Shown: positions 9,890 to 25,105 of the stretch, piece after piece
Numbering within the stretch: the stretch's first letter is position 1
How the letters are laid out: each line of letters starts with the position of its first letter
From: a bacterium
GTDB lineage: Bacteria; Patescibacteriota; Patescibacteriia; SG8-24
Direction: 5' to 3'
Assembly: GCA_023246195.1 (NCBI GenBank)
Contig: JAHFIW010000008.1
Span: forward strand, 1-42,308
Length of the DNA: 42,308 nt
Translations under genes and position numbers: made by a program
Notes under the pieces: model-generated
The model's database searches: none
What the model saw: the letters and a program-made list of their open reading frames with translations, nothing else
What the model was told of the DNA's origin: nothing

Positions 9890-9901
9890 AATGCTTCACT
9901 C

Positions 9902-10789
9902 ATGGACCCTCTCAAGAAATTCGCTAATCTTCGTGAAAAACCGCTTCTGCTCCTCTCTCTGCCAGAAGTAAACCGAGTGGCCTCTCTGACGGTAAAAGAC
10001 GCACTGAGCGGCAAGAAGGAGAATGAACTGGACGTCATTTTGCAGACGCCGGGCGGTGATATCGACGCCGCTTTTTGCATCATCAAGCTGCTCCGTAACC
10101 ATGCAGCCAAAATCAATATCTTTGTCCCCTGGTACGCAAAAAGCGCAGGTACTCTTATCTGTTTGGGTGCTGATAGGATTTGCCTCTCGGAGCTATCCGA
10201 GCTCGGCCCTCTTGATTCGCAAATCCACGAACGTCAGGACGGCGACAGCGGCACCTATAAATCCGCACTGAACGGATTTAAAGCGCTGGACCAGATTCAA
10301 AACCATGCGTTTGAAGTTCTTGACGCCGCCACTAAAATCATCGCCAGCCGCAGCGACCTTAAAATGTCCGAAGCTATCGGTTTGGCGATTGAATTTGTCG
10401 CGAAGACGGCAGGCAATCTTTATGCCAAGCTTGATCCGATGGTAATCGGTGCGTATACTCGCGCACTCGAGGTCGGTGAGAACTATGGCGTTCGGGTGTT
10501 GACCCATTATATGAAATGGAACAACCAAAAGGCGAGTCAAGTTGTGAAGTCGCTTGTTCGCGACTACCCATCTCATGAGTTTGTGATTGACCTCGATGAG
10601 CTCACCCGCCTCGGCCTGCCTGTACACGAGATTTCGGCGGACGAGTTGCCCCTGGTCGAAGAGATTGGTAAAATGATAGCGTCCGAGCAGACACCTCAAA
10701 TTTGTTTCGTTAAAAATGACGTGAAAACCGCGCCGGAGCCCGCCCAGCAACTGGTCGAAGCAAAAAAGAAACAAGCTGCTCATGCTTAA
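9902..10789 (+). CDS. Serine dehydrogenase proteinase-like (SDH_sah, ClpP-fold) serine protease
   Basis: VILQTPGGDIDAAFCIIKLLR, YAKSAGTLICLGADRICLSELSELGPLDSQ pattern of the SDH_sah/ClpP clan. Confidence 0.85.
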   Translation: MDPLKKFANLREKPLLLLSLPEVNRVASLTVKDALSGKKENELDVILQTPGGDIDAAFCIIKLLRNHAAKINIFVPWYAKSAGTLICLGADRICLSELSELGPLDSQIHERQDGDSGTYKSALNGFKALDQIQNHAFEVLDAATKIIASRSDLKMSEAIGLAIEFVAKTAGNLYAKLDPMVIGAYTRALEVGENYGVRVLTHYMKWNNQKASQVVKSLVRDYPSHEFVIDLDELTRLGLPVHEISADELPLVEEIGKMIASEQTPQICFVKNDVKTAPEPAQQLVEAKKKQAAHA

Positions 10790-10803
10790 ATGACATCCTT
10801 GCT

Positions 10804-10986
10804 ATGAACAACACGGAGCCCGAAGCCTCGCAAACGAAGCTCCAGACGCAAGGAACATCCTCAGACCTGTACAAACAGGAAATCTCATCCTCGCGTCGTT
10901 TTGTACGAGAAACCGTGCGCGAAGTACGCTCGCATCAGGATCATCGTTCTTTGAACAACGACCACACGTGCCACATTAAACGTTGA
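10804..10986 (+). CDS. Hypothetical small polar protein
   Basis: 60 aa ORF directly downstream of the protease and before a terminator; no recognised domain. Confidence 0.35.
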   Translation: MNNTEPEASQTKLQTQGTSSDLYKQEISSSRRFVRETVREVRSHQDHRSLNNDHTCHIKR

Positions 10987-11040
10987 TGGTTAAGTAGGGG
11001 CACCCATTTATCTATCCGTCGAAAATATAAGGCCGAGATA

Positions 11041-11073
11041 AGCAGCTTTCTTTTGGAGAAGGTTGCTTTTTTA
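11041..11073 (+). terminator. Rho-independent terminator
   Basis: AGCAGCTTTCTTTTGGAGAAGGTTGCTTTTTT hairpin + T tract. Confidence 0.7.
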
Positions 11074-11172
11074 TGCTAAAGTATGTGCATCTATTGGATA
11101 CACGCCCGTTGAATTTCAAACGCTAAAAATGAGCGAATAGAAAAGGCGACCTAAGTCAGAATTTGCGAAGAA

Positions 11173-11619
11173 ATGAAACGTATGCAAAAAGTCCTAGTCT
11201 TTGGCACTTTTGACCTGCTCCACCCAGGGCATCTTGCGTTTCTCGATGCTGCGGTGAAGTACGGTGCCGTAACAGTTGTGATTACGCCCAATTTCAAAGC
11301 GAAAAAGGAGAAGGGGAGAGCCCCTCACTTTTCCGAACGCGAACGAATGCAAATGGTTGCGGCGCTGAAAAATGTTTCCCGTGTCGTTATTGGGGACAAA
11401 GGAAAAAAGTGGTCCGTGGTACGGCGCCTTGCGCCAGATGTCATATGCGTCGGGCACGATCAGCACGCAAAACATCCAGCCTTCTTGGCGCAATTGGCTA
11501 CACTGAAGAAACGGCCGAAGATCGTCAGGCTATCATCGTTTAAATCGTCGAGATACTCGACATCAAAAGTGAAACTGGAGATTCATAGGTCCCACCGTCG
11601 CAAACAATCAATCGTTTAG
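11173..11619 (+). CDS. HIGH-type cytidylyltransferase-family protein (glycerol-3-phosphate cytidylyltransferase / FAD synthetase-like)
   Basis: VLVFGTFDLLHPGHLAFL nucleotidyltransferase signature; later VRRLAPDVICVGHDQ. Confidence 0.88.
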   Translation: MKRMQKVLVFGTFDLLHPGHLAFLDAAVKYGAVTVVITPNFKAKKEKGRAPHFSERERMQMVAALKNVSRVVIGDKGKKWSVVRRLAPDVICVGHDQHAKHPAFLAQLATLKKRPKIVRLSSFKSSRYSTSKVKLEIHRSHRRKQSIV

Positions 11620-11624
11620 GGACA

Positions 11625-11653
11625 AAAAATACGCCTTGTCAGGGCGTATTTTT
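11625..11653. terminator. Bidirectional intrinsic terminator
   Basis: AAAAATACGCC-ttgtcag-GGCGTATTTTT perfect stem between convergent genes. Confidence 0.85.
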
Positions 11654-11658
11654 CCTGC

Positions 11659-11952
11659 CTAAAGTGGGCACTCTGACAGGCTGAGAAGGTTGTCGGTCTC
11701 AACTCCGTTTGCGACCGTCTTCACGTACTTGTTGCCGTGTCGCGAAACCCTTACAACAACCTTGACCCTCTGACTAAGACCGCCGAGGACGTAGGCTTCG
11801 CCACCCCGCTCGATCCAATCGACGAGCTGCAAACGGCTCAACTTACCCTTAGAGCCGGTGCCATCCTCAACCCAGCCAAGGAACGAGATCGCCTCGTACG
11901 GATCGTCATGCCTGCCGTTTTCCTTGTTGATACAGACGATTTTGATCGCCAT
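11659..11952 (-). CDS. DUF3892 domain protein
   Basis: MAIKIVCINKENGRHDDPYEAISFLGWVEDGT...VVRVSRHGNKYVKTVANGVETDNLLSLSECPL resembles DUF3892; ORF extends to 11982 but the ATG at 11952 fits the family start. Confidence 0.7.
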   Translation of the reverse strand: MAIKIVCINKENGRHDDPYEAISFLGWVEDGTGSKGKLSRLQLVDWIERGGEAYVLGGLSQRVKVVVRVSRHGNKYVKTVANGVETDNLLSLSECPL

Positions 11953-12062
11953 ATCTGTAAAGTTGGCCGGGGGAGTGACCAACGGTGTGTTTTAGCCGAC
12001 TTTTCTGTCCCCACAGCGTCCTTCCCAAGAACCTTTTTTTGGTATACAAAGAAGCGGTCCTT

Positions 12063-12084
12063 CCTGACCGCGCTAACGGTCAGG
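12063..12084. repeat. Perfect hairpin/inverted repeat
   Basis: CCTGACCG-cgctaa-CGGTCAGG. Confidence 0.8.
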
Positions 12085-12112
12085 GCAGAGAAGGGCTAGA
12101 TTAGATTGCTTC

Positions 12113-12141
12113 GCGAAACCGTCCACAGTGGGCGGTTTCGC
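12113..12141. repeat. Strong hairpin upstream of fic
   Basis: GCGAAACCGTCCA-cag-TGGGCGGTTTCGC (about 13-bp stem with one G-T pair). Confidence 0.8.
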
Positions 12142-12196
12142 TGTAGCAAGGCTAGCAACGACTTCTCCTCTTTTCAAGTTCCAAGAAATGGTCTAT

Positions 12197-12227
12197 ATTT
12201 GGAATATCCACAGGCTATATTCCAAAT
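12197..12227. promoter_or_regulatory. Putative operator immediately upstream of fic
   Basis: Perfect 11-bp inverted repeat ATTTGGAATAT-N9-ATATTCCAAAT ending next to the ATG at 12229. Confidence 0.65.
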
Positions 12228-12228
12228 T

Positions 12229-13371
12229 ATGCCCAAATTTAAGGCTGGAGCCTATACACAGCAGCAAACCGGATACAAGGCATTTGTGCCCAATTTCATC
12301 GATCAGCCCTATACTTGGGATGACCGCCGAATTGACGTTATTCTTGCCGATGCCATGCGATATTTGGGCGAGCTTAACGCATATTCCACCTTGGTCCCGG
12401 ATGTAGATTTTTTCATAAAAATGCACGTCACGAAGGAAGCAACGGTTTCGAGCCGCATTGAAGGCACGCGAACGAATATCGACGATGCCGTGAAGACCGT
12501 CGAGGAAGTTTCCCCTGAACAGCGCGACGACTGGGACGAAGTCCAGAACTACATAAAAGCGATGAATTACGCCATCGCCGAATTGGAGCACCTGTCCCTG
12601 TCGACACGCCTCATAAAGAGCACCCACAAATACCTCCTTGATGGCGTTCGAGGTTACGGCAAACAGCCGGGCGAAATCCGCAGCAGCCAGAATTGGATCG
12701 GCGGCGCGACGCTAAATGATGCGAGTTTCATTCCGCCACCTGCGCACGAAGTGCCCGCCTTGCTCGGTGACCTGGAAAAGTTCTGGTACAACAAAACGTT
12801 GACCTTGCCCGATCTTATAAAAGTCGCAATGAGCCACTACCAATTCGAAACGATCCATCCGTTTCTCGATGGAAACGGACGAGTGGGTCGACTGCTTATT
12901 ACGCTCCATTTGGTAAGTTTGGGAATACTGACGAAGCCGACGCTCTATCTTTCAGATTTTTTCGAAAAACATCGTGATCAATATTACGATGCGCTGAGCC
13001 GTGTCCGCGCCACCAATGACATGGAAGGCTGGCTGCGTTTTTTTCTTGTAGGTGTTGCTGAGACCGCTAAAAAGGGAAGGGATACTTTCCAGAAAATCAT
13101 CGACTTGCGAGAGAAATACGAAGATACGATCGAGAAAAGGATGCCGAGCCGTCGGCAAAAAACCACAAAGGCCTTACTCCTTAAGATGTTCTCTCAACCG
13201 ATCGTCTCGATAAACGACCTGTCAAAAATCGGTGACGAAGTCATTTCCTTTCAGACAGCAAGCACCATCGCAAAGGAACTCACGGACAGCGGCATCCTTG
13301 TCGAAATCACCGGCCGCAAAAAGAATCGACTGTTCGTCTTGGATGAGTATTTGAATCTCTTCCGCGGTTAA
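12229..13371 (+). CDS. Fic family AMPylator with N-terminal inhibitory motif and C-terminal winged-helix-like region
   Basis: [15 protein letters not shown] catalytic motif; SSRIEGT inhibitory helix motif; ATG at 12229 (ORF opens at 12106). Confidence 0.93.
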
Positions 13372-13387
13372 CGAAACACCTCACCCT

Positions 13388-15412
13388 ATGTCATCAGGAA
13401 ATACAACAGGACAAGATCAACTCATTTGGGAGATCGCGGAGCTGCTCAGAGGCGGCTGGAAGCAGTATGAATATCAGGATGTCATCCTGCCTCTTGTGGT
13501 CCTCAAACGGCTCGACGCCATGCTTGCCGGGACGAAGCCGGCGCTACTCGAAATGTGTGAACGGCTGGAAAAGGAGAACGTCGACCGCGATCCGATCCTC
13601 AAAAAGGCTGCCGGAGCGGATTTTTACAACTGCTCAAAGTTTGACTTCGACAAACTCTTGGACGATCCCGCGCAAATCGCCAAAAACTTCCGCAAATACC
13701 TGCAAGGCTTCAGCCCCAACGTGCAGGACATCTTTTCGAAGTTCGATTTTGACCGACAGCTCGAACGACTTTCTGGCGGCAACATGCTCTATATGGTCGT
13801 GAAGGCTCTGAACCGCGTGGACCTTCATCCCGAACGGGTCAGCAACCACGACATGGGTGCGATTTTCGAGAATCTCATTCGGCGATTCAACGAGCAATCC
13901 AACGAGACTGCCGGTGAGCATTATACGCCACGCGAGGTCATCAAAATGATGGTCGAAGTTCTTTTGTCGCCTGACAGCGAGGATTTAAAGCGTGAGAACA
14001 AAGTGAAGACCGTGTATGACTGTGCCTGCGGAACCGGAGGCATGTTGTCGACTGCCAAGGAACATATTCTCGAGGCGATAAATCCGAAAGCCAAGATTTA
14101 CCTATTCGGGCAGGAGTTGAATGCGGTAACTTACGCCGTCTGCAAATCGGACATGCTCATCAAGGGCGACAACCCCGAGCGCATCAAGGGCGGCGACAAA
14201 GATCACGCCAAGGCGAGCACCCTTTCAAATGATCAATTTGCGGACCTGCAGTTTGATTACCTCCTGACCAACCCGCCATTCGGCGTGGATTGGAAGAAGG
14301 ACAAGGAAGCAGTTGAGCGCGAACACGAAATGCGGGCGTATAGCGGACGTTTCGGCGCCGGCCTGCCACGCATTTCGGACGGCCAACTGCTTTTCCTACA
14401 GCACATGGTCTCCAAGATGCGTCCCGTGTCCGACGGCGGTGCACGCCTGGCCATCGTATTTAACGGCTCTCCTTTGTTCACGGGCGATGCCGGCTCTGGC
14501 GAGAGCGAGATTCGACGGTGGATCCTGGAAAAGGACTGGCTCGACGCCATCATCGCCCTGCCTGACCAACTGTTCTTCAACACTGGCATTAATACCTACG
14601 TCTGGGTGCTCTCAAACCGCAAACAAAAGGAGCGTAAGGGACTGGTGCAGCTGGTCGACGCGCGTACCTTTTTCGAGAAAGAACGGAAGAGCCTCGGCAA
14701 CAAGCGACATAAGATATCGGACGCAAACCGCGAACGCATCCGTGAGCTCTATGACGCATTCGAGGAGAGCGAGTACTCCAAAATTTTCAGGACGACCGAC
14801 TTCGCATACCGCCAGATTATCATCGAGCGCCCTTTGCGGTTGAATTTTCAGGCAAGCGCCGACCGGCTGACGCGGCTCAGGACGCATAAATTATTTGCAG
14901 AGGATGTAGAGTCGACGAAAAAGAAAGCTAAAGATCTCGATAAGGAGGCCATTTTAGCTGCGCTCGAAAAATTTGGTGACAAGTTGTACCGAAATCGTGA
15001 GACGTTCGTCACCAACCTTGAGAAGATGTTCGAAAAGGCAGGGCTCAAAGTCACGACTCCGGCGATGAAAGCCGTCCTTTCAGAGCTGTCCGAGCGCGAT
15101 GAGACCGCCGATATCTGTCTCGATGCCAACGGAAATCCGGAATCCGACAGCGAGCTGCGCGACACTGAGAACGTGCCGTGGGGCCGCGATGTCAATGAGT
15201 ACTTCGAGAACGAAGTCCGGCCTTACGTGCCCGATGCTTGGATTAATGCTGAAATTAGGGATCACAAGGACAAGAAAACAGGAAAGGTCGGTTATGAAAT
15301 TCCGTTTACTCGCTATTTTTACCGGTACCAAGCACCGCGCGATCTCACGGCAATTGATGCCGACATTGTGAAGGTTGAGGACGAGCTTCTGAAACTTCTG
15401 AAGCAGATTTGA
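13388..15412 (+). CDS. hsdM: Type I restriction-modification system, methyltransferase subunit
   Basis: EHYTPREVIKMMVEVLL, YDCACGTGGMLSTAKEHI, DYLLTNPPFGVDWKK. Confidence 0.96.
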   Translation: MSSGNTTGQDQLIWEIAELLRGGWKQYEYQDVILPLVVLKRLDAMLAGTKPALLEMCERLEKENVDRDPILKKAAGADFYNCSKFDFDKLLDDPAQIAKNFRKYLQGFSPNVQDIFSKFDFDRQLERLSGGNMLYMVVKALNRVDLHPERVSNHDMGAIFENLIRRFNEQSNETAGEHYTPREVIKMMVEVLLSPDSEDLKRENKVKTVYDCACGTGGMLSTAKEHILEAINPKAKIYLFGQELNAVTYAVCKSDMLIKGDNPERIKGGDKDHAKASTLSNDQFADLQFDYLLTNPPFGVDWKKDKEAVEREHEMRAYSGRFGAGLPRISDGQLLFLQHMVSKMRPVSDGGARLAIVFNGSPLFTGDAGSGESEIRRWILEKDWLDAIIALPDQLFFNTGINTYVWVLSNRKQKERKGLVQLVDARTFFEKERKSLGNKRHKISDANRERIRELYDAFEESEYSKIFRTTDFAYRQIIIERPLRLNFQASADRLTRLRTHKLFAEDVESTKKKAKDLDKEAILAALEKFGDKLYRNRETFVTNLEKMFEKAGLKVTTPAMKAVLSELSERDETADICLDANGNPESDSELRDTENVPWGRDVNEYFENEVRPYVPDAWINAEIRDHKDKKTGKVGYEIPFTRYFYRYQAPRDLTAIDADIVKVEDELLKLLKQI

Positions 15413-15413
15413 T

Positions 15414-16754
15414 ATGGATTCTATAAAACAAACCGCTTCAGGGGGTCACGAACTCAGAAAATACCCTAATTACGAAGACTCTGGATCAGAGTGGGTTGGC
15501 AAAGTTCCCAGAGGTTGGAAACTGCAACGGCTAAAGTATGTTGCGATGATGAATCGGCAGGAATTGCCCGAAAATACTCCGCGCGATTATTCTTTTAAGT
15601 ACTTTGATATTGGCAGCATTGAATCGGGCGGACGGAAAAGCGCGCCATCGGAGTATACGTTTGAAAATGCGCCTTCGCGAGCCCGCCGAATTGTCCATGC
15701 GCAAGATACGATCCTCGCGACGGTTCGTACATATCTGAAGGCGGTTTCTTATTTTGAAAATCCGGACCCTAACACCGTTGTCTCAACCGGCTTTGCGGTT
15801 CTGTCACCCATTAAGGAAAAGATTGATCCCAAATATCTCTACCATCAGATTACTGCGGAAATTCTGATTCAAGACGTCGTGGCGAACTCATCAGGCGTCA
15901 GTTATCCAGCCATAAATCCTTCGCAACTTGGCTGTCTAGATATTATTCTGCCGCCACTGGTCACTCAAAAAAAAATCGCCGCATATCTAGATGAGAAAAC
16001 CGCGACGATTGACGAGGCGATTGAAAAGAAGCGGCGGCAGGTAGAGCTACTCAAGGAAAAATGCGCGGCAATGATCAACCGAGCCGTCACCGTCGGTTTG
16101 GATTCGAAAATCGAACAGGTTGACTCAGAAATTCCCTGGCCAGAGCAGATTCCAAAAGGATGGCGTATTTACCGTTTGAAATTCTTTTGTGACTTCCAAT
16201 CCGGCGACGGCTTTCCTGAAGAAATGCAGGGCGAAAAACGTGGCGACCTACCGTTCTTTAAGGTCAGTGACATTAACGGGGAAGGGAAGTGGGCGGAAGA
16301 GCCGTCAAATTTTGTTTCGAAACTTGATGCCTTGAAAATGAGGTGGCATCCGATTCCGTCCGGATCAATCATGATGGCAAAAATTGGCGCAGCGCTTGCC
16401 AAGAATCACCGCAAAGTGACAACAACCACCTCTTATATTGATAATAACACCATGGCAGTGAGCGGTAATAACAAATTAGTAACTGGCGACTACCTGTATT
16501 GGCTTTGGAAAAACATCGATCTTAAGGACTTCCAAAACATATCGTCTGTGCCATCCGTAAACATGGGCCAAGTACGCGGCCTTCGTTACCCCCTGCCGCC
16601 AAAGGCAGAGCAACAAAACATCACAATGTATTTAGATGAGAAAACGGCCATCATCGATCAGGCGGTCCAAAAAATCAACCGATCTATCGAGTTGCTGGCC
16701 GAGTATAAATCGTCACTTATCACGAATATCGTAACGGGAAAGGTCGCGGTTTAA
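15414..16754 (+). CDS. hsdS: Type I restriction-modification system, specificity subunit
   Basis: Two target-recognition-like halves, each ending in a conserved repeat: YLDEKTATIDEAIEKKRRQVELLKE and YLDEKTAIIDQAVQKINRSIELLAEYKSSLI. Confidence 0.95.
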   Translation: MDSIKQTASGGHELRKYPNYEDSGSEWVGKVPRGWKLQRLKYVAMMNRQELPENTPRDYSFKYFDIGSIESGGRKSAPSEYTFENAPSRARRIVHAQDTILATVRTYLKAVSYFENPDPNTVVSTGFAVLSPIKEKIDPKYLYHQITAEILIQDVVANSSGVSYPAINPSQLGCLDIILPPLVTQKKIAAYLDEKTATIDEAIEKKRRQVELLKEKCAAMINRAVTVGLDSKIEQVDSEIPWPEQIPKGWRIYRLKFFCDFQSGDGFPEEMQGEKRGDLPFFKVSDINGEGKWAEEPSNFVSKLDALKMRWHPIPSGSIMMAKIGAALAKNHRKVTTTTSYIDNNTMAVSGNNKLVTGDYLYWLWKNIDLKDFQNISSVPSVNMGQVRGLRYPLPPKAEQQNITMYLDEKTAIIDQAVQKINRSIELLAEYKSSLITNIVTGKVAV

Positions 16755-16768
16755 AAAGAAATTTTCCT

Positions 16769-19735
16769 ATGACCACCAATATTAAGGAAATCGGCTTTGA
16801 AGAATTTATCGAGCACTACTTGTTGAACCAGAACGGCTATCGAAAACGAGAGTCGGGTGATTATGACAGAGCCAAATGTCTCGACGGACAAATGGTCTTG
16901 GAGTTCATCCAGCAGACCCAACTATCTGAATGGCAAAAGCTTGTCGAAGGATACGGCGCCGACGCGGCCGAGCGGTTTTTGGATAGGCTGTCTAAAGAAG
17001 TTGCCAGCCGCGGAGTCCTCGATGTCTTGCGTGGCGAAATTGCCGACCGTGGCGCGCGGTTTCGCATGGCGTTCTTCCGTCCTGAAACCGCGATGAATAC
17101 GGAGACGTCTGCGGAATACGCCGCAAATATCCTTTCGGTTACTCGCCAAGTTAAGTTCAGCCAAAAAGACGAGAAGTCGATCGACATGGTGCTGTTCCTG
17201 AACGGACTGCCACTTTTCACCGTCGAGCTGAAGAATCAGCTCACCGGGCAGTCCGTTCGCGACGCGATGCTGCAGTATAAGCGCGACCGCAGCGTTAAGG
17301 AACCGCTCTTTGCCTTTAAGCGTTGCTTGGCGCATTTTGCCGTTGATGCCGAATTGGCCTACTTTACGACGCGCCTCGAGAATTCGCACACGCGCTTCAT
17401 GCCTTTTAATCGGGGCAATAACGGGGGTGCCGGCAATCCGGCAAATCCCGAGGGATACCGCACGGCGTATCTGTGGGAAGACGTCTGGACGCGCGATGGT
17501 CTCATGGAAATAGTCGGGCGCTTCGTGCAAGTGCAGCGCACGGAGAAAACCGACCGACATGGACGCGTAACCCGTGGAGAGGCCCTCATCTTTCCCCGCT
17601 GGCACCAACGCGAGGCCGTTCGTCGCATCGTGGCGCACGCACGCGAACATGGTGCGGGTCAGAATTATCTCATTCAACACAGCGCGGGAAGCGGCAAGAG
17701 CAATACGATCGCTTGGACGGCACACCGCCTCGCGGCCCTCCACGATGCGCAGGACAAAAAGATTTTTGACACGATTCTGGTCGTCACTGATCGTCGGGTC
17801 ATCGACCGCATGCTTCGCGATACCCTGGCGCAGTTTGAACAGGTGGCGGGCGTCGTCAAGGCGATCACCGAAAGTGCGGCGGAACTCAAGGCCGCACTTG
17901 AGGCGGGGGAGAAGATCATCGTCACCACCCTACATAAATTCCCGTTTATCCTGGATGCCGCGGGAACCCTGCCTGGCAAGCGGTTTGCAGTGATTGTCGA
18001 CGAAGCGCACTCATCCCAAACGGGCGAGGCCGCGTCCAAACTTCGCCAGGTGCTGACCGCCAAGGATTTGGATTCCGCCGAGGCCGAAGAGGCGGAAGAG
18101 GTCAGTACGGACGAGGACTACATCAACAAGGAGCTGCGCGCACGGAAGGTACACATGTCGAATTTGAGCTACTTCGCTTTTACCGCGACGCCGAAACAAA
18201 AAACCCTGGAGCTCTTCGGCACCCTGAATCCCGCGGACGGACGCTTCTATCCGTTCAGCATGTATACCATGCGCCAAGCCGTCGAAGAGCGATTTATCAT
18301 AGACGTGCTGCGCAACTATACGACGTACCGATCCTATTTCTCCCTGCTCAAAAAGATTCAGAACGATCCGGAGGTCGAAAAATCCAAGGCCGAACGCCTG
18401 CTCATCGGCTATGTGGAACGACATGAGCAGGCCATAGAAAAAAAGACCCAAGTCATCGTCGAGCATTTCCTGGCAAAGGGCGCCGAAATGATCGACGGTG
18501 AGGCCAAGGCAATGGTCGTCACGCGTTCACGTCTTCACGCGGTGCGCTTTAAACTTGCGTTTGATAAGTATCTAAAAGAGCGAGGCTGTCCGTTTCGTGC
18601 CTTGGTTGCGTTCACCGGCAGGGTGTCGGATGGCAGCGCCGAGTATTCCGAACCGGGCATGAATGGCGTTTCGGAAAGCGCAACGGCGGAGGAGTTCAAG
18701 AAAGTCGAATGTCGATTCCTGATAGTCGCGGAAAAATTTCAAACGGGTTTTGACCAACCGCTTTTGGCCGTCATGTACGTGGACAAAAAATTGTCGGGGG
18801 TTAACGCCGTCCAAACGTTGAGCCGCCTGAACCGAACCGCCCCAAAAAAGGAGGAGGTCTTTATTCTTGATTTCGTAAACGAGACCGAGGATATCAAGGA
18901 GTCTTTTCAGCCCTATTACGAAACGACGATTCTTTCTGAAGCAACCGACCCGAATATTCTGCACGACCTTGAGAGAGACGTCTTGGGATTCCGGTTATTC
19001 AACAGGATTGAAATCGACAGGTTCATTGCGGGGTACGCACATTTTCCACCGATGACGCCGGCGCAGGTAAACGCCGCCCTGGAAGAATACGTCGGGAGGT
19101 TCAACGGACTGCTCGAGGAGGAACAGATGGATTTTAGGACCAAGTGCCGCGATTACGTGAGACGTTATGCGTTCGTGTCGCAAGTGGTTCCGTTCGAAGA
19201 CCCGAAGCTAGAGAAACTATACGTCTTCCTGCGCATGCTCATGCGTAAGTTGCCCACAGCAAAAATCGAGATGCCGACGGAAGTGCTGGAGGCCGTGGAT
19301 ATGAGCACATACGGGCTGCGCCTGAATAGCGAGGATCGCATCGAGCTTGAGAAAAAGTCAGGATTGTTAGAGCCGATGACAGCAGGTGAAACGGGAGGCA
19401 AACCGACTGACGAGATGGAGGCGTTGTCAAAAATCATCAAAGAGATGAACGACCGTTTTGGCGGAGACCTAGGACCAGAGGGTGCAACGATCATCCGGGA
19501 CAGTCTGGAGCCCCGTCTCTTGGCTGACGAGGATCTCGTTGGCGCAGTCCGCGAAAACGCGCCTGATGCCGCCAAAATCGTGTTCGACGAGTCGTTTGGG
19601 GATCTGCTCGTAAAAATGTACACCGACCACTTTGCCTTTTACCAAAAAGTAAGCAGCAATCCTGAACTGAAGAAATGGTTGAACGATCGATTGTTCGAAC
19701 ACATGGTGAGAAAAATTCAGGAAAAGAAATCTTGA
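16769..19735 (+). CDS. hsdR: Type I restriction-modification system, restriction/translocase subunit
   Basis: SIDMVLFLNGLPLFTVELKNQ (PD-(D/E)XK), LIQHSAGSGKSNTIAW (Walker A), VIVDEAHSSQ (DEAH). Confidence 0.96.
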   Translation: MTTNIKEIGFEEFIEHYLLNQNGYRKRESGDYDRAKCLDGQMVLEFIQQTQLSEWQKLVEGYGADAAERFLDRLSKEVASRGVLDVLRGEIADRGARFRMAFFRPETAMNTETSAEYAANILSVTRQVKFSQKDEKSIDMVLFLNGLPLFTVELKNQLTGQSVRDAMLQYKRDRSVKEPLFAFKRCLAHFAVDAELAYFTTRLENSHTRFMPFNRGNNGGAGNPANPEGYRTAYLWEDVWTRDGLMEIVGRFVQVQRTEKTDRHGRVTRGEALIFPRWHQREAVRRIVAHAREHGAGQNYLIQHSAGSGKSNTIAWTAHRLAALHDAQDKKIFDTILVVTDRRVIDRMLRDTLAQFEQVAGVVKAITESAAELKAALEAGEKIIVTTLHKFPFILDAAGTLPGKRFAVIVDEAHSSQTGEAASKLRQVLTAKDLDSAEAEEAEEVSTDEDYINKELRARKVHMSNLSYFAFTATPKQKTLELFGTLNPADGRFYPFSMYTMRQAVEERFIIDVLRNYTTYRSYFSLLKKIQNDPEVEKSKAERLLIGYVERHEQAIEKKTQVIVEHFLAKGAEMIDGEAKAMVVTRSRLHAVRFKLAFDKYLKERGCPFRALVAFTGRVSDGSAEYSEPGMNGVSESATAEEFKKVECRFLIVAEKFQTGFDQPLLAVMYVDKKLSGVNAVQTLSRLNRTAPKKEEVFILDFVNETEDIKESFQPYYETTILSEATDPNILHDLERDVLGFRLFNRIEIDRFIAGYAHFPPMTPAQVNAALEEYVGRFNGLLEEEQMDFRTKCRDYVRRYAFVSQVVPFEDPKLEKLYVFLRMLMRKLPTAKIEMPTEVLEAVDMSTYGLRLNSEDRIELEKKSGLLEPMTAGETGGKPTDEMEALSKIIKEMNDRFGGDLGPEGATIIRDSLEPRLLADEDLVGAVRENAPDAAKIVFDESFGDLLVKMYTDHFAFYQKVSSNPELKKWLNDRLFEHMVRKIQEKKS

Positions 19736-19741
19736 CGCAGA

Positions 19742-19778
19742 AAGAAAGCCGCCCACCGTGCTAGTGGGCGGCTTTCTT
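19742..19778. terminator. Bidirectional terminator hairpin
   Basis: Perfect 15-bp stem AAGAAAGCCGCCCAC-cgtgcta-GTGGGCGGCTTTCTT between convergent genes. Confidence 0.9.
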
Positions 19779-20564
19779 CTTTGCATCGATTTGAGACCTC
19801 GACATTTTTTTAAGTTCAGAAATGATCTTCTTGTTGCTGATCATCTCCGGAAAGAAAAAGCATCCATTCCTATTTTCTGGCGGCACGACCCTATCGACCA
19901 GAGACTCGCCTTCGCCATGACCGCAGTGTACTTGGTGCACATATTCTTTTACGAATTGGTCCCCGGCAAATTCATCGTAGAGAATGACCAAACCATTACT
20001 TAGACCGAAAGAGTTCCGTGAACCATGCCCCACAAAGTACATCCGCTTTACCGACGTATTTACCATCAAGCCTCGCACATCATCGATGCTGGCTCTGAGG
20101 TAAAATGATACGTCATTTTCCTTGAGGTCAATTAGTTCACATAGTGCGACCATTTCTTCATAAGACCAATGCGCACGAATCCAGCCCTCAAGAAATGAGT
20201 AATCAGGGAAAGCAACGATTACGGATGTCTCACTTGGAATGTTTTGCTTATATTTCTTTTTCTGCAGATATTTCAGCAACTTAATTTCGTCCCAGAAAAT
20301 GTATGCGGCACCAAATGAGCCGAATAACGTTAGGGCCCACTCCTCTCGCAGGATGGCAATCCGAAAAAGCGTAACAGCCAATAATCCGAGATGGAGGATG
20401 GACAGGAAACCGACAAGGATGGCTATTTCGGTCCACGACAAAGGGTGCGCCACAAGACGCCCAAGAAAAATCGTGGATAGCAGCAATATTAAAATGAGCC
20501 CATCAGCCGCGATGATAATTGCGCACACGTAAAAGCGGATTTTTTCCGACAGGTTCTTAAACAT
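19761..20564 (-). CDS. Membrane protein (about 2 TM) with a cytosolic caspase/CHAT-like His-Cys domain (putative)
   Basis: Hydrophobic segments at about residues 12-35 and 45-70; MYFVGHGSRNSFGLSNGLVILYDEF...EYVHQVHCGHGEGESL gives a H180/C214 dyad pattern. Confidence 0.6.
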   Translation of the reverse strand: MFKNLSEKIRFYVCAIIIAADGLILILLLSTIFLGRLVAHPLSWTEIAILVGFLSILHLGLLAVTLFRIAILREEWALTLFGSFGAAYIFWDEIKLLKYLQKKKYKQNIPSETSVIVAFPDYSFLEGWIRAHWSYEEMVALCELIDLKENDVSFYLRASIDDVRGLMVNTSVKRMYFVGHGSRNSFGLSNGLVILYDEFAGDQFVKEYVHQVHCGHGEGESLVDRVVPPENRNGCFFFPEMISNKKIISELKKMSRSQIDAKKKAAH

Positions 20565-20575
20565 CCGAGAACAGA

Positions 20576-22333
20576 TTACTCTGCTGTTTCTTCTCCAACA
20601 TGCTTTTCATCCACCGCAATAAACCCACCCTGCGCCCGCAATAACCCAGCATAAGCCCCATTCTTAGCGGCCAACTCCTCATGCCGCCCAGACTCCACAA
20701 TCCGCCCGTCCTTCAAAACGAGGATCACATCCGCGTCCTGTACCGTCCTCAGACGATGCGCGATGATGAACGTCGTTCGCCCCTTCATCAGCGCATCAAG
20801 CGAGTGCCGCACGGACTCCTCGGTCTTGCTGTCCAGGTGGGCGGTGGGCTCGTCGAGCACGATGATCTTGGGTTTGCGCAAGAAGGCTCGCGCCAGGGCC
20901 ACGCGTTGGCGTTCGCCGCCGGAGAGCTTCAGGCCGCGTTCGCCGACGACCGTTTCCAATCCGTCGGGCAGCGCGGCCACGAATGCCTCCAGGCTGGCGA
21001 GGCGGATGGCTTCGCGGATTTCTTCGTCGGTGGCGTCGGGACGGCCGTAGCGGATGTTGAAGCCGAGGGTTTCGTGGAAGAGGGTCAGGTCTTGGGGGAC
21101 GTAGGCCATCTGTTGGCGCAGCGACACCAGCTTGATTTCGGCGACATTGCGACCGTCCACCAAAATCTGGCCTGACTGCGGCAGGTAGTAGCGACCGAGC
21201 AGATCGACCATGGTGGTCTTGCCCTCGCCGGACTCGCCGACGATGGCCACCCGCTGGCCGGCTTTGATGGCGAAGGAGACGTCTTCGAGAGTCGCTTTGT
21301 CTTCGCGGTAGCGGAAGCGGATGTTTTTGAACTCAACGTCGCCGTGCAAATCGACGGCTTCACCGCTGGCAAAGTCCTCGGCAGGCTCCGCCTCGATCTG
21401 TTCGATGTCCTTGAGTGCGGGTGACAGGCGCATCACGGCGCGGAACTGCCACTGACAGTAGCGGACATAGCCGAAGACGGCGAAAGTGTAGGCGGTGATG
21501 GTAGTGACGCGGCCGAAGGTGAAACGGCCGGACTTGAAGTCGGCGACGGCCACCAGCAGCGCGGCAAACGAACCGACGGCGATGATGAAGTTCTGCACGT
21601 TGAGCACGCGCTTATCGAGCGCGAAGTCCTTCATGACGATGGCCCTGAATTCGTCGCTGTGCTTTTTCAACGTCGTCTCCACCAGTTCCTCGTTGGTAGT
21701 GGACTTCACCACCAGGGCGTTGCGCACCGAATCCCAACCGAAGGAAGACATCTTGCGGTCGGCCTTGTTCCAAGCGTCGCGCGTGGCGAGCACCTTCGGC
21801 AAGACGGCGTAGGTGTAGCCCATGAATGCGGAGACGGACAGCAGCAGCGCGACCGAGATGCGCCAATCAAGGTAGGCGATGTACCCGAGGATGCCGACCA
21901 GCGCCAACAGCGCGGGCCAGAGATCAAAGATGATGCCGCTGATGACGTTCTCGATGTCCCAGCGCAAGCGCATCACCTTGTCGGTGGTTTCGCCGCTCTT
22001 CTTGCCATAGTGAAAGGCCAGCGGTTTGTTGAGCACCGTCACGATCATCCGGCGCACCAAGCCCTCGGCGGCGTTGGAGGACACCCTTTGGCCACGCTCG
22101 GACGTGAAGGCTCGCAGCTGCTCCGAAACCACACGCATCGCGAACCAGGCGAACAGGAAGCCCGCAGCGGCGATGAACGTCGCGCCGCTCCTGGCCAAGT
22201 CGAACCCGCGTCCCATGGCGATGGGCGCGATCGTATCGAGGCCGGCGGTCACCACGGACAAGGCCGTGAAGGCCGTGATGACGCCGGCGTAGGGTTTGAG
22301 TTCCTTTTTAAGGAAGCGGACGATAGGAAGCAT
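20576..22333 (-). CDS. ABC transporter, fused permease/ATPase (MsbA-like exporter)
   Basis: [56 protein letters not shown]. Confidence 0.95.
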
Positions 22334-22399
22334 ATAGGGTGGGGGAACTGACGATTTTCTAGTAATTACGTGGGATTGTCAACACTTCGCACGACGAAG

Positions 22400-22426
22400 A
22401 AAAAAGCCGCCATGAGTACCGGCGGC
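22400..22426 (-). terminator. Intrinsic terminator (minus strand) after the nucleotide cassette
   Basis: Minus strand GCCGCC-ggtactcat-GGCGGCTTTTTTC. Confidence 0.8.
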
Positions 22427-22449
22427 CCTTTGTTGTCAGGCGCGATTCA

Positions 22450-23049
22450 TCAGCCTGCGGTGTCCATGAGAACATCGTGGACGTTCTTTTTCGCGGACCT
22501 CTCCACAATGACCCGCGCGGTCTGCGCGACAGTACCGTTGTTGCGAGCAATGAACGCATTTTCCTTGCCGCTGAACAATTGCCGAAACTCCGCCTCATTC
22601 GTGATCGCGTCTTCGTGGATGCCGCTCGAATCAAGAGAGCGAACCCTGCCCGTTGCTCGGATATCGTGGTCCCTCCTTCGCAGCACCGCTTCCTTCGGCG
22701 AGCTGATCAGGCAGTATGCCCGAGCATGGCGCAGGAAAGAGTCGTGCCACATGCGCTCACGGCTCACGACGCCGTTCCGCCGGATACAGGCCACCAGATG
22801 CATCTCGCAAACGACCAGTGATGCCCGCTGATGCGCCGTGAACGCCTCGGTCAGCGCAACGCGTAGCGCATCGCGCTTTACGTAGGCGGGCATCCTTTCC
22901 AGCTCATCACGCGAAACGTCGCCAAAGGCGCGGCGAAGCACTTCTGAACTTGAGAGACGTACCGACCCTTTGACCATGCTGATCACATGACCCGCGACGG
23001 TTGATTTCCCGACGCCGTTGATGCCGAACAGAAAGCACACGTTCTTCAT
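22450..23049 (-). CDS. P-loop (adenylate/dNMP-kinase-like) nucleotide kinase
   Basis: VCFLFGINGVGKSTVAGHVI Walker A; RLSSSEVLRRAF; 199 aa single domain. Confidence 0.75.
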   Translation of the reverse strand: MKNVCFLFGINGVGKSTVAGHVISMVKGSVRLSSSEVLRRAFGDVSRDELERMPAYVKRDALRVALTEAFTAHQRASLVVCEMHLVACIRRNGVVSRERMWHDSFLRHARAYCLISSPKEAVLRRRDHDIRATGRVRSLDSSGIHEDAITNEAEFRQLFSGKENAFIARNNGTVAQTARVIVERSAKKNVHDVLMDTAG

Positions 23050-23112
23050 GACTGCCTCCTCGCCCTGAATGGGCGCCAGCCGCGTCGTCTCTGCGACGGC
23101 GCGGAACGGCGA

Positions 23113-24021
23113 CTATTCAGCTGCGGCAATCCTCTCCAGATATTCGGCGAGGGCGGGTACTTCGGAAGTGCGCCCGCGTTCTTCCGGCGGCATTTCCGCA
23201 TAAGTGAGACCTGCGACGTTTGCAGCGGTCGTCGGAATCAGGATTTTGTCCATCGGATAGGACGGATACGTACCGCGCGGATCGGTGGCGAATCGCACCG
23301 GCACGGTACTTACTTCCACGGACATCTGATATCCGTCAAAGAACGCGGCGGCGTTGCGGCGGCTCCCGTTGCGGTTCTCTACGCCGACCAGCAGACGCAG
23401 CAACCCCTCCGGCTTCAGCTTGGTAGCCGCTTGTTTGGAATTGGGGCCGGGGAAACCATCGTAGGCATCCATGAAGATGCCGCCGTCCGTGCACAACACC
23501 GGCCGACGAACGATGGCATAGGAACGCCGCGCCTTGTCCTCGGCGATCGTTTCGATGTCATCGTGTTTCAGTTCCGGGACATCGAAGTCGCAGCCGTGCA
23601 GATGCTGGTGATGAACCGCCGTTCGCATTTCAAGCAGCTTCATCGGATTGCCGGTGACGAAGTACACGGAGTCCGGGAAGGGGCGATGGAAGGTGACCAG
23701 GGTGATGCCTGCGCCTTCGATGCTGTCCAAATCGACTTGTGCGGTCGGCACCCAACCGAGCGCGCGCATAGACTCGCGGATCCACGTCGGATGCAGCCCT
23801 TTTCCAAAAGACGAACGTTCGTAGTCGAAAATCGCATAATTGCCGAGGCGTGATCGGCGCGTGAGGTCGGCCATGAGCAACAATGCGTCGGCTTTGCTCG
23901 TTGCAGAGACCAGTGTTCCGCGCGAGGTCAAAACGTCTTCGCCCCGCACGACCGAAAGCAACGTCTCAAAACGCAACCCGCTTTCTTTCCGCATTTCTTC
24001 TTCGGTCATTTTGGCGTTCAT
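23113..24021 (-). CDS. Non-canonical purine NTP pyrophosphatase (Ham1/RdgB/ITPase) family domain with extra N-terminal domain of about 115 aa
   Basis: VYFVTGNPMKLLEMR...VLCTDGGIFMDAYDGFPGPNSKQA matches Ham1 motifs, starting only at about residue 119. Confidence 0.8.
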   Translation of the reverse strand: MNAKMTEEEMRKESGLRFETLLSVVRGEDVLTSRGTLVSATSKADALLLMADLTRRSRLGNYAIFDYERSSFGKGLHPTWIRESMRALGWVPTAQVDLDSIEGAGITLVTFHRPFPDSVYFVTGNPMKLLEMRTAVHHQHLHGCDFDVPELKHDDIETIAEDKARRSYAIVRRPVLCTDGGIFMDAYDGFPGPNSKQAATKLKPEGLLRLLVGVENRNGSRRNAAAFFDGYQMSVEVSTVPVRFATDPRGTYPSYPMDKILIPTTAANVAGLTYAEMPPEERGRTSEVPALAEYLERIAAAE

Positions 24022-24791
24022 ATCGCAAAGGCCATAGCAGGCGCAGGTCGTGACGCATTAAGCGCCGCGCGTTCGTTAAGGTACGTGCTGACTGTCTCCA
24101 ATGCCGCGTCGTAGGTGTTCTGGTAGATGTGCCCGTCGGTAATCATGCCGTCGATGAATCCCATCCGCACGGGCTTCGCAAGCGATACGGAGAGCCGTCG
24201 TCCCACTTCTTGTGCCAGAAGCGAGAACACCACCAAATCACTGACGTTCTTTTGGAAGACGTCCTGCGAGCGCATGTTGTAGACGGTGTTCAGAACGTAA
24301 CCGTCGCCTGACGGGCGAAGACGGAACTGCAACGAGACGATGCAGGGCAGATAGTCGTTATACGGGGAGTCGAGCACCTTGCCGTAGTCTTCGTACGTCG
24401 GGAAAACCATCACCGCCTTCTTGGATTCCGGTATTTCCGTCAGACGCTTCACCACGAAGTCGATCATGCGTCCTTCATGCAGGCGCGCGTGGTAGCTTTT
24501 CGCGCCGACCCGGAAGTTCGGCGTAACGTCGAAGTCCTCCATGACGGGGGATTCAAACACCAGTCGCCGCATCTTCTCGATGTTGGCCGCGTTGCCGAAG
24601 CGTTCCACCAGCGCGTCTCGCTCGCCGTGCGAACGCACCTTGAGCCGAAGCATCGGCAACGCGAACCGACCGCGGTTCTCGTCCGGATCGTAACTTCCGT
24701 TCTTCAACACGCATTCGACCGCCGCCAACCAAGCCTCACCGATGGTGTCGCCGGCTACGGAGTAGCCGAAGCACTCATGAAAACTGATCAT
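24018..24791 (-). CDS. Thymidylate synthase-fold protein, predicted (d)CMP hydroxymethylase
   Basis: DTIGEAWLAAVECVLKNG; SYHARLHEGRMIDFVVKRLTEIPESKKAVMVF; YLPC(150)IVSLQF; MRSQDVFQKNVSD(185)L; TDGHIYQN. ThyA active-site order with Asp instead of Asn at the N177-equivalent. Confidence 0.72.
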   Translation of the reverse strand: MISFHECFGYSVAGDTIGEAWLAAVECVLKNGSYDPDENRGRFALPMLRLKVRSHGERDALVERFGNAANIEKMRRLVFESPVMEDFDVTPNFRVGAKSYHARLHEGRMIDFVVKRLTEIPESKKAVMVFPTYEDYGKVLDSPYNDYLPCIVSLQFRLRPSGDGYVLNTVYNMRSQDVFQKNVSDLVVFSLLAQEVGRRLSVSLAKPVRMGFIDGMITDGHIYQNTYDAALETVSTYLNERAALNASRPAPAMAFAI

Positions 24792-24817
24792 AAGATGTTG
24801 TGGATAAGTACGAGCTA

Positions 24818-24846
24818 GTCGTAGCAGGGTACTAAAATACTGTCAA
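24818..24846 (-). promoter_or_regulatory. Sigma70-type promoter for the nucleotide cassette
   Basis: Minus strand TTGACA-N17-TACGAC, about 27 bp upstream of the ATG at 24791. Confidence 0.6.
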
Positions 24847-25105
24847 GAGTCTGACAATTTATTATCAGAAAAGTGATGTATACTGATACATATTTCTTCC
24901 CGCAAACGTCTCTCGTCCGCTGCGACCAACACACCCGTGTTTGCGACGACTCCGCATATTTATGCCCTTTTTGACCAAAAAAAGGGGAGAAAAGAACCAT
25001 TTTTTTCAACAATTTAGCTTTATTGTCAATACATCAAGCGCGTGGCACAATGACCGTGGTTCTCGGACCGTTTTTTCGTGTTTTATGCACAGGCAGTAAT
25101 GGCAT

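Follow-up and report, generated by a model that had tools for sequence, protein, structure and literature searches.

The stretch of DNA analysed here (the window, 42,308 nt) is contig 6 of a 1.17-Mb, 98% complete Patescibacteria genome, and it carries a cassette of three minus-strand genes for a thymidylate synthase (TS)-fold protein, a Ham1 protein and a P-loop kinase. A preliminary description had proposed three codirectional minus-strand genes, the first two joined by a start/stop ATGA overlap, and both features were recovered. Gene 1 (24018..24791, minus strand) encodes a predicted pyrimidine C5-modifying enzyme of 257 aa, gene 2 (23113..24021, minus strand) encodes a 302-aa protein whose start at 24021 overlaps the TS stop codon at 24020-24018, and the third gene (22450..23049, minus strand) encodes a 199-aa P-loop kinase with the nucleoside-monophosphate (NMP) kinase fold. 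Pfam matched gene 1 to PF00303 (thymidylate synthase, E=4.6e-6, above the cut-off), gene 2 to PF01725 (Ham1, E=1e-17, residues 119-286) and the kinase gene to AAA_33 (E=1.9e-6) and AAA_17; together with AF2 models and Foldseek searches, these matches agree with the TS-fold enzyme and nucleotide kinase named in that description. Its assignment of gene 2 as a Ham1-type pyrophosphatase describes only part of the protein, for the PF01725 domain is present (23128..23670, minus strand) but the first third is the remnant of a methyltransferase.

The intrinsic terminator expected 3' of the kinase gene is strong (22401..22431, minus strand), with a 12-bp stem of -17.3 kcal/mol and z=-3.8 that no shuffle equals, followed by a run of U's. 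A dedicated promoter had also been proposed, and here the string TTGACA-N17-TACGAC is indeed present at 24846-24818 (24818..24846, minus strand), but its -10 box agrees with TATAAT at only three of six positions and a consensus promoter scan does not list it, so that this possible promoter is weak evidence.

The cassette lies in the lysS-serS interval (9890..25105), which synteny with seven same-family genomes and Pfam annotation identify as a variable insertion site. All seven keep the order lysS, serS, followed in most by alr, ddl and ftsQ, and the cassette is absent from every one of them. In the window the interval spans 15 kb and holds Fic, hsdM/S/R, a membrane ORF, an ABC transporter and the cassette. 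Because G002 has the same ABC transporter 120 bp from serS and lacks the cassette, the window copy falls precisely between two genes that elsewhere adjoin each other; it is an accessory element inserted into this interval. An origin of the window copy from a phage or plasmid was considered and set aside, as neither kind of element gave a close match and IMG/VR gave a single contig with a relative. Elsewhere in the interval (12106-19735), the Fic protein (Fic_N + Fic) directly precedes a complete type I restriction-modification system, hsdM-hsdS-hsdR. Between hsdR and the ABC transporter, a 267-aa ORF (19761-20564, minus strand) with N-terminal membrane helices by eye, a 'VGHGSRNSFGLSNG' stretch and no Pfam match may encode a CHAT/caspase-like or other conflict protein.

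The host genome carries tandem ThyX, SHMT and NDK, with no second PF00303 (ThyA) match. Its dTMP supply is thus independent of gene 1, and SHMT and NDK provide for methylene-THF and for the conversion of NDP to NTP. The preliminary description had counted the lack of another thymidylate synthase in the genome against its own reading, an objection that ThyX removes. Canonical ham1 genes lie between lysS and serS in G005 (L100:7508-8107) and G008 (L105:7207-7809), and the 98% complete window genome has no PF01725 match outside the cassette. Simple reuse of a housekeeping ham1 was nonetheless rejected, as the window Ham1 domain and its methyltransferase remnant match a cassette gene of the distant genome G015 rather than the canonical ham1 that relatives carry at this site.

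Folds and active-site residues of the three proteins

The AF2 model of the TS-fold enzyme (pLDDT 89.9, pTM 0.88) retrieved MilA (5jp9/5b6d) as its top Foldseek match, followed by AfhB-type dCMP hydroxylase (9iqu/9iqc, matches 7-8) and then thymidylate synthases; MilA is also its best PDB match by sequence. In an alignment with T4 dCMP hydroxymethylase, the window enzyme keeps C150 (T4 C148), Y100 (Y96), R174 (R168), S175 (S169), the folate Asp D177 (D171), D185 (D179), H221 (H216) and Y223 (Y218), with K124 opposite T4 R123. The fold and the equivalents of Cys, Arg166, Asp169 and Tyr94 (C150, R174, D177 and Y100) place it within the TS superfamily. The canonical dTMP-making enzyme is a poor fit, with Asn177 replaced by Asp185 and His147 by Ile151, and a plain thymidylate synthase was ruled out by Asp185, the genomic ThyX and the cassette context.

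Published work assigns cytosine recognition to an Asp at position 177/179/186 and ribose recognition to Ala176 and Lys133 (PMC5175136, PMC8670742, PMC6400193), and an Asp at the cytosine position marks phage contigs bearing modified cytosine (PMC8670742). By these rules the window active site is of the cytosine type, since Asp185 corresponds to Asp179 of the T4 enzyme and Asp186 of MilA where dUMP enzymes have Asn. The sugar determinants are mixed: in the rule derived from MilA, Ser with Arg denotes a deoxy substrate and Ala176 with Lys133 a ribo substrate (PMC5175136), and the window enzyme pairs a deoxy-type Ser175 with a Lys124 of the ribonucleotide type found in MilA and BcmA, so that CMP stays a possible substrate. 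The position of the catalytic Glu (T4 E60, MilA E68, EcTS E58) is taken by R75 or N70 in an uncertain helix alignment, and by K, I or L in relatives of the same clade, with no conserved acid in the helix.

Asp177 is also found in otherwise ordinary TS genes of Patescibacteria, including L003, L004, L007, L008, L012, L018 and others (RSNDMMLGNPHD), for which it predicts dCMP over dUMP as the substrate. Where checked, in L003 and L004, these genes adjoin a DHFR-like gene, and L004 has a dCTP-deaminase-like neighbour as well. As such canonical-looking enzymes share the residue, its presence is not in itself proof of a hydroxymethylase.

Gene 2 is a fusion. BLASTP aligned it to residues 269-556 of the corresponding L027 protein in G015 at 39% identity over 291 positions (E 4e-73), and residues 217-314 of the L027 protein are a PF13649/PF08241 methyltransferase. 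The N-terminal ~110 residues of gene 2 (~20-112; 23686..23964, minus strand) correspond to the C-terminal portion of a class I SAM methyltransferase whose SAM-binding half is absent. By this comparison the methyltransferase of the window cassette is lost and only a remnant is left, which shows that the pathway is partly degraded in the window. The Ham1 domain matches MJ0226 (1b78, E=2.5e-17), with KomB also among the PDB matches of gene 2. It keeps TGNPMK, E150, K163 and D179, equivalent to the TGN..K motif, the metal Glu, the Lys and the Asp of the family, and has TDGG in place of (E/D)DSG. The S/N-H-R base-recognition motif is gone, replaced by S-E-V-P (window) or T-E-L-P (G015); it is kept in the Ham1 proteins of G605, G671, G927 and G1171 and appears as W-H-R in G1178. 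An altered base preference of the window domain is plausible, and with His-Arg lost it could serve as a sensor or have lost catalysis.

The kinase model (pLDDT 85.6) adopts the NMP-kinase fold with a GINGVGKS P-loop, and Foldseek returned the M. maripaludis AdK (TM 0.75-0.78), OdinAK and UMP/CMP kinases. The protein is thus placed nearest to archaeal adenylate kinases and is a predicted NMP kinase; a kinship with T4 gp1 was discarded, the resemblance being confined to the P-loop.

Related gene sets in other Patescibacteria and a phage

The same three-gene set recurs in two distant Patescibacteria, G015 (L027) and G605 (L061), there accompanied by a methyltransferase and a NUDIX hydrolase. In G015 a frameshifted TS runs into NUDIX, followed by a 556-aa Ham1-like/methyltransferase/Ham1 protein and then the kinase; in G605 the TS and NUDIX genes are divergent from Ham1-methyltransferase and kinase genes. 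This recurrence indicates that the cassette is more than a chance arrangement, and it bears out the conserved co-occurrence of TS, Ham1 and kinase for which the preliminary description had suggested a genome-neighbourhood search.

Nine further TS relatives were found, eight in genomes, namely G167 (L029), G446 (L060), G671 (L062), G927 (L084), G1077 (L118), G1171 (L119), G1178 (L120) and G733 (L121), and one on a phage contig (L059); a strict peptide-pattern scan of the genome contigs gave only two loci, and taxon-wise searches found more. In a FastTree analysis the family forms one clade (support 0.91) apart from T4 gp42, the RB69 AfhB-like protein and canonical TS, with the window, G605 and G015 grouped at 0.99. 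The neighbours of these genes are mostly Ham1 or CYTH proteins, a QueC-like PP-loop ATPase, or dNK/NDK-type kinases. Ham1 adjoins the TS gene in the window, G015, G605, G671, G1171 and G1178 and lies 4 kb away in G927, in a position that varies between downstream, divergent and upstream; this difference in gene order suggests repeated association rather than one inherited adjacency. The PP-loop ATPase accompanies the TS in G167 (where it is frameshifted), G446, G671, G1178 and L059, CYTH was matched by Pfam in G167 and L059 and is represented in G446 by a CYTH-like ORF with no Pfam match, and the kinase partners are dNK in G446 and G1171 and NDK in G671.

The cytosine position is occupied by Asp in the window, G015, G605, G1077, G1171 and G1178, and by Asn in G167, G446, G927, L059, G671 and, by alignment, G733, so that about half of the relatives are of a type that predicts uracil rather than cytosine. 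PP-loop partners go mostly, not exclusively, with Asn-type enzymes; an initial generalization that all Asp-type enzymes lack one was dropped because G1178 combines the two.

The phage contig also encodes NinB, an exonuclease and HNH, matches nothing among the GenBank phages, and includes an intact QueC-like gene that overlaps both the TS and the CYTH genes (L059:6692-8084). The frameshifts that split the G015 TS gene (L027:6962-8156) and the G167 QueC-like gene (L029:1928-2834) may reflect assembly error, decay or programmed frameshifting. At L121:6366-12188 an ORF that by eye resembles a nucleoside deoxyribosyltransferase, with no Pfam match, comes after the TS-fold gene, and the locus also holds a sugar oxidoreductase, a DegT-like aminotransferase, a NUDIX-like ORF and a GT2 that by eye resembles the GT2 next to the L062 TS; it looks like a nucleoside-glycan pathway.

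Interpretation and comparison with known systems

Taken as a whole, the locus is best explained as an accessory, horizontally acquired operon for a C5-modified (hydroxymethyl) deoxycytidine nucleotide that is made as the monophosphate and then re-phosphorylated, a reading whose chances we judge to be evenly balanced. In such a pathway the Ham1 domain would cut a nucleoside triphosphate back to its monophosphate, whether to provide dCMP or to remove the modified dNTP. Cys150 of the TS-fold enzyme would attack C6 of dCMP, and a one-carbon unit from methylene-THF would be added to give, most likely, 5-hydroxymethyl-dCMP. The kinase would then produce the modified diphosphate, from which the host NDK could make the triphosphate. 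Fuller versions elsewhere add a methyltransferase and NUDIX (G605, G015) or a QueC-like PP-loop ATPase and CYTH (G167, G446, L059), which suggests that the basic product is normally tailored further. We infer each of four elements: hydroxymethylation over methylation, a deoxy- over a ribo-substrate, the direction of the Ham1 reaction and the final use.

This reading retains much of the preliminary description, which had recognized a TS, pyrophosphatase and kinase logic built from families other than those of T4. Distant Patescibacteria keep the same set, and around the TS clade nucleotide kinases recur together with Ham1 or some other phosphohydrolase. The modified cytosine proposed there fits the cytosine-type site marked by Asp185 but is weakened by a catalytic-Glu position that appears non-acidic in the family and by the loss of His-Arg from the Ham1 domain. 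The tailoring enzymes, methyltransferase and PP-loop ATPase, belong to a wider kit that had been missed. The window holds no recognizable consumer of the product, and its copy of the cassette looks like a pared-down form of a larger modular pathway.

A different destination for the same chemistry is a nucleoside natural product or surface glycan, with hydroxymethyl-CMP or -dCMP as the precursor, as in mildiomycin, and the window encoding only the early steps. MilA as the nearest structure, a Lys124 that is family-wide as in MilA, the ABC transporter adjoining the cassette, and glycosyltransferase, aminotransferase, oxidoreductase, decarboxylase or sulfotransferase-like genes at G671, G927, G733, G1171 and G1178 would all accord with it. 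We nevertheless consider such a route unlikely: Ser175 and the kinase point to a dNTP-type route, the window lacks any tailoring gene, G002 has the transporter in the same position but no cassette, and the glycosyltransferase neighbours are not conserved across the clade.

The lost methyltransferase half and the frameshifted G015 gene raise the question of decay, in which only the Ham1 domain, perhaps with the kinase, would still be useful for nucleotide house-cleaning; that the domain is the sole PF01725 match in the genome, at a site where some relatives hold a canonical ham1, is in keeping with this. It is quite improbable, however, given that all three frames are intact, that the TS keeps its catalytic residues and 52% identity to its G605 counterpart, and that the Ham1 domain lacks the base motif that ITPases use.

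The Kongming system, in which KomB, a Ham1-like protein, senses nucleotides, suggests a defensive use, either through a modified nucleotide or through Ham1 sensing of modified phage nucleotides. KomB among the gene 2 matches, the atypical Ham1 motifs, the type I restriction system and Fic on the same island and a NUDIX in L061 that matches a PADLOC candidate family would be compatible with this. PADLOC, however, found no known defence system matching the TS or Ham1 protein and gave the kinase only weak P-loop hits, neither an NADase nor any other effector is present, and one TS relative sits on a phage contig, leaving an anti-phage role very unlikely. Highly improbable, finally, is flavin-dependent dCMP hydroxylation like that of AfhB from RB69-type phages. 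In its favour, AfhB structures are among the Foldseek matches, the RB69 AfhB-like protein shares the Asp at the 177 position, and by alignment the window family has no conserved catalytic Glu. The window enzyme, however, keeps the folate Asp D177, which argues against flavin chemistry, and Tyr223, at positions where the RB69 protein carries Asn and Phe, respectively, and the tree does not group the two.

Beyond the window, and more tentatively than for a single cassette, we propose that an undescribed clade of TS-fold enzymes, present in Patescibacteria and in one phage or more, powers a modular route to hypermodified pyrimidine nucleotides of new kinds. Its cytosine-type members would work with Ham1-methyltransferase, NUDIX and NMP kinase, and its uracil-type members for the most part with QueC-like PP-loop ATPase and CYTH; this may be so, at somewhat less than an even chance. 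A limited literature search found no published description of the clade. If true, the products would be hypermodified pyrimidine nucleotides not yet known from any organism, and the kits would offer testable new base-tailoring enzymes: the methyltransferase fused to Ham1, and the QueC-like ATPase that accompanies a TS-fold enzyme. The present host is a very small and probably parasitic bacterium. Patescibacterial genomes are tiny and encode little nucleotide biosynthesis, so that an optional modified-nucleotide pathway is unexpected here. If the chemistry holds, phage-style precursor modification would extend to bacterial chromosomes with different proteins, the phosphohydrolase role falling to Ham1, NUDIX or CYTH.

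Known systems resemble the cassette in part. The phage cassettes identified by MetaGPA, which combine a TS with a carbamoyltransferase for 5-carbamoyloxymethyl-dC, likewise unite an Asp177 TS, a phosphohydrolase and a tailoring enzyme (PMC8670742), whereas window-type kits tailor by methyltransferase or PP-loop ATPase and reside in a bacterial host. Kongming also sets a Ham1 domain (KomB) beside a nucleotide-modifying enzyme, but the window has a kinase rather than a deaminase or NADase effector. The window Ham1 domain belongs to the fold family of RdgB, ITPA and MJ0226 and has the TGN..K motif, the metal Glu, the Lys and one catalytic Asp in common with them; it differs in its TDGG, its missing S/N-H-R and its fused methyltransferase remnant. 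AfhB-type proteins (RB69 ORF048c; 9iqu, 9iqc) are small TS-fold enzymes with Asp at the cytosine position, the RB69 gene lying near a nucleotide-kinase gene, and the RB69 protein lacks the folate Asp and Tyr of the window enzyme. MilA, the CMP 5-hydroxymethylase of mildiomycin, and BcmA of bacimethrin offer the closest solved structure, the cytosine Asp and a Lys at the 126/133 position, at ~19% identity; the window differs in having Ser rather than Ala176 and no adjoining MilB hydrolase. Phage T4 makes hydroxymethyl-dCTP with the dCMP hydroxymethylase gp42, the dCTP pyrophosphatase (dCTPase) gp56 and the dNMP kinase gp1, and the window shares this three-function logic and a TS with the equivalents of Cys, Tyr, the folate Asp and Asp179. 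The window TS, however, is only 18% identical and belongs to another clade, Ham1 replaces the gp56-type enzyme, the kinase resembles gp1 at the P-loop only, and the set lies on a bacterial chromosome with no glucosyltransferase beside it. The T4-like logic describes well how the set probably works, but the set itself is not of the T4 family.
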